A stretch of 13,740 bases of DNA, taken from assembly GCA_025774205.1 (NCBI GenBank), contig JALGWK010000113.1, positions 1 through 13,740 of the forward strand. The letters are read 5' to 3'. The DNA comes from a bacterium. GTDB lineage: Bacteria; Blakebacterota; Blakebacteria; Blakebacterales; Blakebacteraceae. Shown one piece after another: positions 7,314 to 13,740 of the stretch. Under the pieces are notes generated by a model. That model saw nothing but the letters and a program-made list of their open reading frames with translations. It was not told where the DNA came from and searched no databases. How positions within the stretch are numbered: position 1 is the first letter of the stretch; the number at the start of each line of letters is the position of its first letter. The position numbers were made by a program, and so were the translations under genes.

Positions 7314-8306
7314 ATGTCACCAACGCGACGTGATTTCATTATCAATACGGCCGTGGCCGGAAGCGCCATGAGCCTGGGACTGCATGCCTGTTCCGCGGGT
7401 CCGCGGAAACTGAAGATCCTGGTTCTGGGGGGAACCAGTTTCGTCGGCCCCCATCAGGTCCGTCCCGCGCTGGAAAGGGGACATGAGGTAACGCTCTTCA
7501 ACCGCGGCCGAACCAATACCCACCTTTTTCCGGAGGTCGAGAAGCTGGTCGGCGACCGGGTCGACGACCTTTCCGCCCTGGAAGGCAGGGAATGGGATGT
7601 GGTGATCGACAATTCCGCAATCCTGCCCTCATGGGTCCGCAGATCGGCCCGTCTCCTGAAGGACTCGGTCGGGATCTACCTTTTCACCTCGACCCGATCG
7701 GTCTACTCCGATCTGAGCAGGATCCCGATGGATATCGATGGTCCCGTCTACCCGGTCGAATCGTGGACCGAGGAGACCGAAGGTTCGATGGGTTACGGAC
7801 CCCAGAAGGCCGCCGCGGAGAGGGAAGCAATCGCGGCCTTTGGGGATCGGGCCCTGATCATCAGGCCGGGCCTGATCATCGATGTTCGCGATATGGGGGA
7901 ATGGTACATCCACCTGCTGGAGAACGGGTACACTGGTACTTTCATGGCCCTCGGACCCGATTACCCGCTCACTTTCAAGACCTTTCTCGAAGGAATCAGG
8001 GAGGGTGTGGAATCGGACGCCACCTTCACCTGGATGGATACGGAATTCCTGCAGCAGCAGAGAGTCAGGGCCTATTCACACATGCCGCTGTGGATGCCCG
8101 CCGTGGGTCGTAACGCTGGTTTCAACCGGTTCGATCTGACGAGGACATGGGAGGCGGGACTGACCTACCGGCCCCTGGCGGTGACGGCGAAGGACACTCT
8201 CGATTACCACTTCACCCGGCCGGAAGAGCGGCAGGCGCGCCTCCGGAGCGGGATCACGGCCGAGCGGGAAGCGGAACTCTTCTCGCTCTGGTATTCGCGG
8301 ACCTGA
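7314..8306 (+). CDS. Tat-exported NAD-dependent epimerase/dehydratase-family protein
   Basis: ATG 7314 has AAGGAA (7302-7307) 6 nt upstream. The N-terminus has a twin-arginine signal (TRRDFI, Arg5-Arg6), a hydrophobic stretch and Cys26 in GLHAC, so it may be a Tat lipoprotein. The Rossmann motif GGTSFVG is at 39-45, followed by GHEVTLFNRGRTN. The extended-SDR pair Tyr161/Lys165 (YGPQK) is present, with FTSTRSVYSD before it. The C-terminus has ATFTWMDTEFL and ITAEREAELF. In relatives known to me, about 35 residues (VGPGDPTDRF...PVQF type) lie between RPGLI and IDVRD. Here RPGLII joins directly to DVRDMGEW at about residues 187-190, suggesting an in-frame deletion in the substrate-binding region. 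The protein is 330 aa. Reaction and substrate are unknown. Confidence 0.85.
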   Translation: MSPTRRDFIINTAVAGSAMSLGLHACSAGPRKLKILVLGGTSFVGPHQVRPALERGHEVTLFNRGRTNTHLFPEVEKLVGDRVDDLSALEGREWDVVIDNSAILPSWVRRSARLLKDSVGIYLFTSTRSVYSDLSRIPMDIDGPVYPVESWTEETEGSMGYGPQKAAAEREAIAAFGDRALIIRPGLIIDVRDMGEWYIHLLENGYTGTFMALGPDYPLTFKTFLEGIREGVESDATFTWMDTEFLQQQRVRAYSHMPLWMPAVGRNAGFNRFDLTRTWEAGLTYRPLAVTAKDTLDYHFTRPEERQARLRSGITAEREAELFSLWYSRT

Positions 8307-8339: not shown

Positions 8340-9380
8340 CTACCGCTTCATCTCTGCCAGCAGGCGGTCGACCACCTCATCCATCGCCTCACCCCGCTTG
8401 TTCTTTTCGCGGATGACGCCTTCGTGGTCGATGATGAAGATGGTCGGCCAGCCGGTCACGCCCCAGCGGGTCGCGATCGGGCCGCCAGTGATGCCGCCGT
8501 CGGCGAAGGACGGCCAGGTGATTTCATTCTCGACGATCGCCGTCCGGTACCGTTCGGCCGGATCACTGTTCACGCCGACGATGGTGAAGGCTTCATCTTT
8601 CAGTCTGTCTACGAGCGACCGCTCGTGTGGGTACATGACCCGGCAGGGTGGTCACCAGTCTCCCCAGAAGTCGAGGACCACCACCTTTCCGAGATAGTCG
8701 CTCAGTTTCATCGCCTCGCCATCGACGTTCCACCCATTGATCTCCGGCGCGGGATCGCCGATCTCGAGGTCGGCCGGGTCGTGGGGATGCATCTCCGCCG
8801 TGGCGATCGCGCCGTAGGTGGTCTCGTTCCACTGCTCGTCTGCGTAATCGTGGATCAGGCCCTCCAGAAGTTCCACCCGACGCTGCTTCAGTTCATCGGT
8901 AGCGTCTCCGCGGGCTCCGGCGTCGGCCAGGGAATACATGGCCGAGGCTCGGACCTGAGCGTGGGGCGAATCCTCCATCAGCTGACTGAAATACTGCTCG
9001 CGTTGTTCAGTGGTGAGCATGTAGGGAGTATCCGTCAGATGATGGATATAGGGCGATCGAGCATACTCTTCAAAGATGCCTTCCACGATCGCCTCGGCGG
9101 TCCGTTCTTCCTGGTCCTCCGGGATCTCTGCGGAACGCATGGATTGCATTACCCATAGTTCCGCCTTCAGCCCGGCCTCGGTCCCCCAGTAGTCGTGCGC
9201 GATGGTCTGATACTGCTCAAAGAATTCTGTTATACGCTCCTGGTACCCCAGCTCACTGGCTTCGAATTCCACCTGGAGCGCCTCCAGGGCAGCTGTCGCC
9301 GGCGCTTCCTGTGAGCAGCCGGCCAATCCTGCCAGCAGGATCAGCCCGGGGATCATGCTTAATAGTCTCGTCCGCTTCAC
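8340..9380 (-). CDS. Selenocysteine-containing thioredoxin-like lipoprotein (UPPC redoxin)
   Basis: Two same-frame ORFs are separated only by TGA 8654-8652. Read through, they give one 346-aa protein. The start is GTG 9380 (n-region MKRTR, purine-rich AAAGGGA upstream). The lipobox is LAGC with lipidated Cys22, so the protein is periplasmic and membrane-anchored. Residues about 25-215 are a helical, acidic region. The C-terminal half is a TlpA/ResA-type redoxin: IGDPAPEINGW, GKVVVLDFWGDW, then codon 243 (TGA), then PPCRVMYPHERSL, and later ITGGPIATRWGVTGWPTIFII with the cis-Pro. Relatives have Cys at position 243, so the TGA replaces the nucleophilic Cys of CPPC and Cys246 remains. Sec there would make a more reactive thiol-selenol redoxin. 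A hairpin matching a bacterial SECIS follows the TGA. A nonsense mutation or sequencing error is the alternative. No sel genes are in the window. Confidence 0.82.
8611..8626 (-). promoter_or_regulatory. Candidate bacterial SECIS hairpin
   Basis: On the minus strand ACGAGC-GGUC-GCUCGU forms a perfect 6-bp stem with a GGUC tetraloop. The stem starts 25 nt after the UGA and the loop 31 nt after it, within the distance typical of bacterial SECIS elements. The GGUC loop matches the apical loop I recall for E. coli fdhF, where the G and U contact SelB. A short lower helix UGU/ACA (8635-8633 with 8608-8606) across an internal loop is possible. The hairpin overlaps codons for the conserved HERSLV, so part of the pairing may follow from protein conservation. 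Confidence 0.68.
8652..8654 (-). other. In-frame UGA, probable selenocysteine codon 243
   Basis: The sole interruption of the redoxin frame is TGA, flanked by TGG (Trp) and CCA CCC TGC (Pro-Pro-Cys). It sits on the catalytic cysteine codon, which one substitution from TGC or TGT would produce. Confidence 0.82.
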
Positions 9381-10373: not shown

Positions 10374-12791
10374 TCATTCATACCGGAGAGCAGTCACCGG
10401 ATCGATCCGGGTCGCCCGTCTGGCGGGAATGAATGATGCCAGCGTTCCTGTACCGACCAGGATCAACACGATGATGGCGAACATGACGGGATCGGTCGGG
10501 GAGACGCCGAAGAGGAGCATCTGAACTCCCTGGGCCAGGGCGAAGGCGAGACCGACACCGAGGAGGACACCGATGCCGAGCTGTATCGCGGCCTGCTTCA
10601 GGATCATTCTCACCAGATCTCCCGATTGGGCGCCGAGCGCCATCCTGATCCCCAGTTCCGAAGTCCGCCGGCTCACCGAGAAGGCCATTACTCCATACAG
10701 GCCGATCGCGGCGAGGAAGAGAGCGAAAAGACCGGCGATCATGATCATCGATCCGAAGATGGCATAGAACCAGGTCACCTCGAAGATCACCTCACTCATC
10801 GGCATCACCCAGTAGATCGGGAGGTCTCCATCAACCGCCTGAACCGCCCCGCGTATGGTAGAGGCATACGATACCGGATCGCCGCCGGTCTTCAGAGCCA
10901 GACTGACGAATTCAGCGTCCGATTGGTAGAGGGACACATAAACGATCTCCGGTACCTCGTGTTCGGTATCGGTCCATTCATCTCCGACCACGCCGATGAT
11001 GGTGAACCAGGGATCGTCCGGACCATCGGTGGCCCCCCGGGCCCGCTTCCCGATCGGGCTCTCTCCCGAGGACCATTTATCCGCGAAACTCCGATTCACG
11101 ATCGCCACCGGCAGGTTGCCCGCCACATCGGCCGAGGTGAAATCACGTCCCTGCATGATCTCTATTCCGAAGGTGCCGAAGTAATCAGGGGTAACCGGCT
11201 TCAACTGAGTGAAGGGAAAGTCTGAATCGGGCGGGTAATCGACCCCCTCGAAGATGAAATCGGTTCCGTCAGCGCCGCGCACCGGCAGAAAGGGCGTGAT
11301 TGAGGCCGCGTAGATCCCGGGCATCTCATTCAGGCCGACATGCAGATCCTTGAAGAACTGTGTCCGACTCTCGACGGTTGGATAATCGGTCTCGAAGAGA
11401 CCGAGACGGGCGGTCATGATGTTCTCACCCTCGATCCCGAAATCGAACTGATTGAGGTTCATCACGCTCCGGGTGATCAGGCCGGCGGCAAAGAGGAGAC
11501 CGAGTGAGAAGGCAACCTCGGCGATGACCAGGAACCTGCTGAATCTCGACATCCTGAATCCGGAGGCGGCCCGGGATTCATCCTTCAGGATCTCACTGAT
11601 GTTCGGTCTCGAGGCCTGGAGCGCCGGGAATATTCCCGCGAAGACAGAGGAGATGAGCATCATCCCGGCGACGAAGAGGATCACATTCAGATCGACGTTG
11701 AAGTTGAACCAGTAGGGGGGATCGCTCCCCTGGGCGTATTGCATGAAAACGGTGATGCCGATATGTCCCAACAGGAGGCCGATCGACGCGCCGATAACCG
11801 AGAATGATGAGGCCTCAAGAATGAGCTGTCTGATCAGCCTTCTCCGACTCGCTCCCAGAGAGGTGCGCACCGCCATCTCCCTGGTGCGCATGGAGGCACG
11901 CGCCAGCAGGAGGTTAGCAACATTGAAGCAGGCGATCAGCATCACCGCGAATGTAGCCGCCAGCATCAGGTGGAGGACGAGGTTCCCCTCGGTTCCCATG
12001 ATCAGCGCTGAGATCTTCTGTACCTGGATGCCGACTCCCTCATTCGATTCCGGGTACTCACGGGCCAGGTTGGCGGCAATGGCATTGAATTCCTCGGTCG
12101 CCTGCCGGTCGGTGACGCCCTCTCTCAGGCGGCCCATAACATTCAGAGGTACCCCGTCTCCCCGGGCAAGCACCAGGGGGTCCTGCTTCTGAGGCAGCCA
12201 GAGCACTTCCTCCATCGGGAACTGGAATCCCTCCGGCATGACGCCGATGATCGTCGATGTCTCGCCATTGACCCGGATGGTTCTGCCCAGGATCTCCGGA
12301 TCACCGCCAAACCTGGTCTGCCAGACGTCATGACCGATCAGGATCACCGGTAACGCGTCATTCGACCGCTCATCTTCGGTGAAGATCCGACCCATCAGGG
12401 GTTGGATCCGCAGAGCTGAGAATGCGCTGGGAGTGATGAACGCGCCATCATACCGGATGGGATTGTCTCCCTCGCTGACGATGTTCACGGTGCCCTCATA
12501 CCAACCGGCCAGATCCTCGAATGAGGTCTGCTGCCTGCGCAAGTCGGTGAAGTCGTGGATCGAGACTCCCATCTGATTAATGCCTTCGGCAGGATTGTTC
12601 CCCGTGAGGAACCGAAGGTCACGGGAGTCTTCGAAGGGGAGCGGTTCATACAGGGCGCCGTTGACGATGATGAACATGGTCGTGGTAAGTCCGATGCCCA
12701 GTGCCAGTGTTACCACGCAGGTGACAGCCAGCCCCGGATTCTTCACAAGCATCCGGAGGCTGTGTCTAAAATCCTGAAGAAGAGAACTCAT
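10374..12791 (-). CDS. Intact ADOP-type (MacB/FtsX-like) permease
   Basis: This 805-aa membrane protein begins at ATG 12791 with AGGAA about 9 nt upstream. Order of parts: TM1 (about 20-45, VTLALGIGLTTT), MacB-type periplasmic domain (about 50-275), first FtsX block with TM2-4 (IACFNVANLLLA near 290, then about 330-405), a further TM (FLVIAEVAFSLGLLFAAGL, near 430), second periplasmic domain, and final FtsX block with three TMs (AAIGLYGVMAFSV; the end RRATRIDPVTALRYE). The MALGA motif after SELGIR is present. Proteins of this type are thought to work with a MacB-like ATPase in export or mechanotransmission, but no ATPase gene is in the window. It is a paralogue of the broken gene at 368 and shows what that gene lost. 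It is probably the first gene of the minus-strand cluster. Confidence 0.9.
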   Translation of the reverse strand: MSSLLQDFRHSLRMLVKNPGLAVTCVVTLALGIGLTTTMFIIVNGALYEPLPFEDSRDLRFLTGNNPAEGINQMGVSIHDFTDLRRQQTSFEDLAGWYEGTVNIVSEGDNPIRYDGAFITPSAFSALRIQPLMGRIFTEDERSNDALPVILIGHDVWQTRFGGDPEILGRTIRVNGETSTIIGVMPEGFQFPMEEVLWLPQKQDPLVLARGDGVPLNVMGRLREGVTDRQATEEFNAIAANLAREYPESNEGVGIQVQKISALIMGTEGNLVLHLMLAATFAVMLIACFNVANLLLARASMRTREMAVRTSLGASRRRLIRQLILEASSFSVIGASIGLLLGHIGITVFMQYAQGSDPPYWFNFNVDLNVILFVAGMMLISSVFAGIFPALQASRPNISEILKDESRAASGFRMSRFSRFLVIAEVAFSLGLLFAAGLITRSVMNLNQFDFGIEGENIMTARLGLFETDYPTVESRTQFFKDLHVGLNEMPGIYAASITPFLPVRGADGTDFIFEGVDYPPDSDFPFTQLKPVTPDYFGTFGIEIMQGRDFTSADVAGNLPVAIVNRSFADKWSSGESPIGKRARGATDGPDDPWFTIIGVVGDEWTDTEHEVPEIVYVSLYQSDAEFVSLALKTGGDPVSYASTIRGAVQAVDGDLPIYWVMPMSEVIFEVTWFYAIFGSMIMIAGLFALFLAAIGLYGVMAFSVSRRTSELGIRMALGAQSGDLVRMILKQAAIQLGIGVLLGVGLAFALAQGVQMLLFGVSPTDPVMFAIIVLILVGTGTLASFIPARRATRIDPVTALRYE

Positions 12792-12951: not shown

Positions 12952-13740
12952 TCAGTACGGCCGGGGAGGCCTGTCACCTCCGGCTCCCGGGCCGTATTCG
13001 GCCAGGACCCAGTGCCCGTCACCACCCTCACGATTATCGATCCAGGCGATAAGTCCCACCCCGGGAGTCCAGTATTCGCAGTACTCCTCAAAGCTGGGCC
13101 CCTCGTCGGAGTCGGATCGCTGGTAATAGGACAGCTCCACACAGGTGAAGGTGCCGAACGGAACCGTAATGAGGGTATCGGTGGTGGTCACCACCCAACC
13201 GCTCTGGCCGGTGTTCCAGCCGCCTATCCGCGATCGGGGAGTGGGAACGATCAGGTCGGCCATGCGTTGCTGGGGGCGGTAGACGGGGCGGGGTGTGTCA
13301 TTGTCTCGCAGCCATATCCAGCTCGTCAGATCGATGAGTCCGGCAGAGGAATTGGCCACGTAGTGGGGGTATTTGCCCTGGGAGGAGTCGCCTCGTGCCT
13401 CGATCTGGCAGACTGGACCGGCGACTCTCACCAGCTGGTGTTCGATGAACCTGGTGGAATCGTACCACGCCTGAGCGGGCAGGTGGAAACTGTCGAACGG
13501 CAGCCTGACGGGATCCTCTTTCAGGCGGCGCGCCAGGGCCTGAGGATCATCACGGATCTCCCGGAATGACGGATGGCGGCTGAGGTTCACCAGCGGATCG
13601 ATGAGGATCGTATTGCCCGGCCGACGGAGTTCCTTCTCGACCCAGGTGATGAGGGTGTCCCGGGCGACAGGCTGGAGGCTCGATCGATCCTGATCGATCA
13701 TCCAGTAGACCCAGGCCGTGCCCTCGGAGAGATCCATATA
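12952..13740 (-). CDS. C-terminal part of an unrecognised protein (partial)
   Basis: The frame is open to the right edge (at least 262 codons) and ends at TGA 12954-12952. The ATG at 13737 has a sense codon before it, so it is probably not the start. The first ~150 residues are helical and charged (WVEKELRRPGNTILIDPL, ARRLKEDPVRLPFDSFHL) with no known motif. The last ~90 residues have a pattern I associate with secreted proteins of FCB-type bacteria: TTDTLITVPFGTFTCVELSYY, then YWTPGVGLIAWIDN, then GHWVLAEY, in outline a beta-sheet domain with a PGVGL turn. Cys residues are few. Function is unknown. It may be transcribed with the downstream permease, 160 bp away. Confidence 0.7.
   Translation of the reverse strand, partial: YMDLSEGTAWVYWMIDQDRSSLQPVARDTLITWVEKELRRPGNTILIDPLVNLSRHPSFREIRDDPQALARRLKEDPVRLPFDSFHLPAQAWYDSTRFIEHQLVRVAGPVCQIEARGDSSQGKYPHYVANSSAGLIDLTSWIWLRDNDTPRPVYRPQQRMADLIVPTPRSRIGGWNTGQSGWVVTTTDTLITVPFGTFTCVELSYYQRSDSDEGPSFEEYCEYWTPGVGLIAWIDNREGGDGHWVLAEYGPGAGGDRPPRPY

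Follow-up and report, generated by a model that had tools for sequence, protein, structure and literature searches.

A predicted UPPC redoxin selenoprotein with a lipoprotein signal and a genus-restricted helical domain

The window, by which we mean the whole 13,740-nucleotide stretch of DNA analysed here, carries on its minus strand a gene whose product is almost certainly one exported lipoprotein, 346 residues long, in which UGA codon 243 would be decoded as selenocysteine (Sec) and which would work as a thiol-disulfide oxidoreductase (Table 1). A preliminary description had read this gene as a redoxin selenoprotein with UPPC in place of CPPC, and that reading is supported by the Sec machinery, by an alignment column holding only Cys or UGA, and by the recurrence of the TGA in a second assembly.

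Table 1. Features of the predicted selenoprotein gene (window coordinates)
Feature	Position	Strand	Remarks
Complete selenoprotein gene	8340..9380	-	346 residues; begins at GTG and ends at TAG, with a single internal UGA inside the Pfam match
TGA codon 243, predicted selenocysteine, first residue of UPPC	8652..8654	-	From translation and homologue alignment
Cys246, resolving Cys of UPPC	8643..8645	-	Invariant in 38/38 aligned homologues
Lipoprotein signal peptide, lipobox LAGC	9315..9380	-	Lipidated Cys22 at 9315-9317; read from the translation by eye
All-helical N-terminal domain, residues 25-203	8772..9308	-	Genus-restricted; low-confidence models all-alpha
AhpC/TSA-Redoxin (ResA/TlpA-like) domain, residues 205-346	8343..8768	-	PF00578; cis-Pro motif GWPT
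Putative bacterial SECIS hairpin, ACGAGC-GGUC-GCUCGU	8611..8626	-	6-bp stem; loop begins 31 nt after the UGA

From 9380 to 8340, the minus-strand frame is interrupted by a single internal stop, the TGA at codon 243, which takes the place of the first Cys in the redoxin motif CPPC (DFWGDW-U-PPCRVMYPHE; joined translation, VVVLDFWGDW-U-PPCRVMYPHERSL), as the preliminary description had noticed. The joined protein gave a Pfam AhpC-TSA match that runs across the stop, from residue 207 to 325, with E = 1.5e-22, whereas the halves gave 9.5e-5 and 6.5e-8 when searched separately, which bears out the redoxin similarity claimed for both sides of the TGA. If the TGA stopped translation, the product would be 242 residues long. 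The 98-aa downstream half has a possible ATG start at 8636, preceded by TGGTGACCACCCTGCCGGGTC and without a clear Shine-Dalgarno, in agreement with the earlier claim that it lacks such a start of its own; the GTG start at 9380 has AAAGGGA a short distance upstream. Automatic annotation would report this selenoprotein gene as a truncated lipoprotein plus a fragment.

We compared the gene with its relatives in another genome from this genus (G001; the window's own genome is G000). The G001 orthologue (L023/L057) is 64% identical and the G001 paralogue (L024, L026) 52-55% identical (about 53%), and both have TGA at exactly codon 243, with the motifs UPPC and UGPC among the G001 copies. L024 is contained in L026 (bin Meg19_1012_Bin_119) over the stretch compared. 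The orthologue is syntenic with the window, the shared order being a homologue of the protein encoded at 12952-13737, a permease (10374-12791), the end of a hydrolase gene and the selenoprotein gene, then an epimerase, a STAS-domain gene and a glycoside hydrolase. Among 38 aligned homologous stretches, the codon-243 column holds Cys in 34 and UGA in four, and no other residue. Together with the shared TGA in three copies from two genomes, this agreement goes beyond what chance would give. Downstream of the UGA, dN/dS (NG86) was 0.19-0.40 in three pairs.

The window gene differs in its affinities on the two sides of the UGA. Downstream (8343-8651), it is 80% identical to the G001 paralogue L026 versus 78% to the orthologue, and it has the C-terminus KNKRGEAMDEVVDRLLAEMK in common with L026; upstream, the values are 43% and 60%, respectively. 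This contrast between the two sides suggests gene conversion between paralogues. A more distant and shorter redoxin lipoprotein from another genus of the family (L048/L059, G003:C47) has UGSC at the codon-243 position. Compared with the syntenic G001 contig L057, the permease gene of the window also contains a repeat of roughly 54 bp, and three gaps, each about 70-90 bp long, lie in the permease, glycoside hydrolase and epimerase genes; differences between the two lie at 415-535, 787, 4342 and 7866-7881. The repeat and the gaps may be either assembly artefacts or real deletions.

The preliminary description had proposed a search for selA, selB, selC and selD in the same genome, and all four are present, with selA and selD split between contigs. 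The window's genome is 86% complete and, like every other genome of the lineage, an incomplete bin from a metagenome. It contains a tRNA-Sec of 65.9 bits (ARAGORN call tRNA-SeC(tca)), together with SelB (313-343 bits) and SelA (382 bits; another part on a second contig), both above cut-off. SelD lies in two contig pieces, the N-terminal one with a UGA in CAG-U-ASK, the known Sec position. SelD would itself be a selenoprotein in this genome, and SelD with one internal UGA also occurs in G001 and G003 (SelD loci L017, on G000:C412, L092 and L094). In G001, SelA, SelB, tRNA-Sec and the UGA-containing SelD were all found. The SelB and SelD segments of the two bins are 79-88% identical (tblastx), so the Sec machinery belongs to the lineage, which argues against contamination. 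Judged by this gene content, the matches show that the lineage uses selenocysteine. A further redoxin with an apparent TGA, from genome G189, was rejected as a candidate: it has an ordinary CPPC, its TGA lies near the C-terminus, and the tRNA-Sec match of that genome is a tRNA-Ser.

We considered whether the TGA could be explained in the absence of selenocysteine. A nonsense mutation might have truncated the lipoprotein and left the downstream half to decay; a gene caller would indeed see a truncated gene, and further indels are apparent when the window is set against its syntenic relative. However, the orthologue and the paralogue have the same stop at the same codon, exactly at the catalytic Cys column, the part downstream of the UGA is under purifying selection, and the Sec machinery is present, which makes a pseudogene very improbable. 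An error of sequencing or assembly that turned TGC or TGT into TGA would be in keeping with the draft state of the window's bin and its apparent assembly indels, but two more copies, both from a separate bin (L023, L024/L026), have TGA there as well, and such an error is even harder to credit. The conserved UGA and the dN/dS values thus speak against both a pseudogene and an assembly error. It is just as hard to accept that TGA is a sense codon everywhere in this organism, for example for Trp or Gly, with no selenium involved. The in-frame TGA alone would allow this, but TGA serves as the stop of four further window genes and of the selenoprotein gene in both its G001 copies, and is thus not generally reassigned; moreover, the SelA and SelB matches contain no internal TGA, and the TGA of the selenoprotein occurs only at the Cys column.

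Bacterial SECIS (bSECIS) elements are modeled with a loop of 3-9 nt, a stem of 4-16 bp, G in the first two loop positions, a distance of 16-37 nt from the UGA and an MFE <= -7.5 kcal/mol (PMC13188914). The candidate hairpin downstream of codon 243 falls within these limits: its loop starts with two Gs, and the first 45 nt fold with -13.4 kcal/mol. Its sequence is identical in all three genus copies and therefore provides no covariation evidence; its wider outer stem pairs differently in each of the three copies, as seen by eye, again with no covariation support. An equally good hairpin follows about 5% of window codons and arises in 6-10% of cases when the three copies are recoded synonymously, and the folding energy after the UGA is not exceptional compared with shuffles. 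Identical codons are commoner in the 16 codons after the UGA, but with Fisher p at 0.03-0.15 in three pairs this codon conservation is no clear sign of a SECIS. An Rfam search matched no SECIS family. As stand-alone evidence for Sec, the hairpin is weak. SelD and L048 also have model-conforming hairpins (8 bp after the UGA in L048).

The lipoprotein anchor that had been claimed for the window gene (LAGC) recurs as LTGC in the G001 paralogue L026. In the G001 orthologue, LSGC (LSGCSKE; L057 7000-7160) lies just upstream but out of frame with the remainder of the gene, which looks like a frameshift in this draft sequence. The anchor is followed by an N-terminal domain of about 180 residues, which had no Pfam match and, of 386 genomes, occurs in G000 and G001 alone. 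A scan of IMG/VR yielded no relative. Structure models of the domain are all-helical, in line with the long helical domain described before, at low confidence (mean pLDDT 54 and 63). Foldseek with these models returned no significant match (best E 0.56), and in view of both values we claim no fold for the domain. In the window's copy of the domain there is no Cys besides the one in the lipobox, so a second redox centre there seems unlikely.

The redoxin domain scores 80.3 bits against PF00578 (gathering score 26) and also matches the Redoxin domain PF08534 (E 9.3e-18). Among named relatives in NCBIfam and the PDB, ResA, DsbE and TlpA come out best, and no NCBIfam model reaches its cut-off on the selenoprotein. 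It shares fold family and CxxC position with the ResA/TlpA/DsbE (CcmG) oxidoreductases, which, however, have Cys; since it scores 71.1 bits against the ResA model NF002854, far below the curated cut-off of 170, we do not file it as ResA. The WAxxUGC family NF041054 likewise comprises ResA-like selenoproteins, but its motif is UGC rather than UPPC, and a score of 34.5 bits against a cut-off of 300, with the UGC motif absent, places our protein outside it. Selenoprotein family names follow domain classification and overlap (inventory in PMC13188914). Compared by domain and motif only, our protein has the same Pfam domain and the same UxxC, with Sec first, as the Prx-like thiol:disulfide oxidoreductase selenoproteins (PF00578; 'Prx-like 1' of the Global Ocean Sampling survey), but adds a genus-restricted helical domain and a lipoprotein signal. 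The same two additions distinguish it, again by domain and motif only, from the redoxin family (PF08534, UxxC) and thiol-disulfide isomerase-like (cd02966, UxxC) selenoproteins, with which it has the Redoxin domain and UxxC in common.

These relatives also bear on what the enzyme would do. AhpC-TSA is the best Pfam family, so the selenoprotein might be mainly a Prx-like peroxidase rather than a disulfide reductase. However, its UPPC stands in the ResA/TlpA position, its NCBIfam and PDB relatives are those named above, and selenoproteins of the Prx type carry TxxU (PMC13188914). We therefore favour disulfide reduction and regard a mainly peroxidatic function as unlikely, though less so than the explanations that dispense with selenocysteine.

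The sequence itself shows the readthrough frame, the conserved UGA, the alignment column of Cys or Sec and the genes for Sec use. From these we infer that Sec is inserted, where the proposed disulfide oxidoreductase would lie, in which direction it would work and on what partner, as follows. SelB and tRNA-Sec would decode UGA 243 as selenocysteine, probably guided by the hairpin just downstream, so that a thioredoxin fold of the ResA/TlpA type would acquire a UPPC active site. The protein would be held at the membrane by its lipid anchor, on the periplasmic side, where the helical N-terminal domain probably binds a partner or substrate. The selenolate of residue 243 would attack an oxidised substrate, be it a disulfide or something else, and the resulting mixed selenosulfide would be resolved by Cys246, the protein acting as a thiol-disulfide oxidoreductase and more likely as a reductant than as a peroxidase.

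The preliminary description had suggested a little-described type of selenoprotein, which holds in part. UxxC selenoproteins of the Prx-like, Trx-like and thiol-disulfide isomerase-like kinds were reported in 2005 and 2008 (PMC1088965; PMC2398784), and the current inventory lists UxxC selenoproteins including the redoxin family (PMC13188914). Since such redoxins have been catalogued since 2005, the UPPC type itself is not new, and Prx-like selenoprotein fusions to unknown domains are also known (PMC2398784). The N-terminal domain, and the architecture of a lipoprotein signal, a genus-restricted helical domain and a UPPC redoxin, are apparently undescribed. The protein may represent a new subfamily of membrane-anchored UPPC/UGPC oxidoreductases, duplicated within the genus, with a genus-specific helical partner-binding domain and a dedicated exported substrate, a proposal for which we see the chances as evenly balanced.

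Taken together, the window gene leaves the general picture of selenoproteins unchanged. For a phylum with four genomes among those compared, it contributes a selenoprotein gene that is well supported, and it suggests a Sec-based disulfide enzyme working outside the cytoplasm on a lipid anchor.
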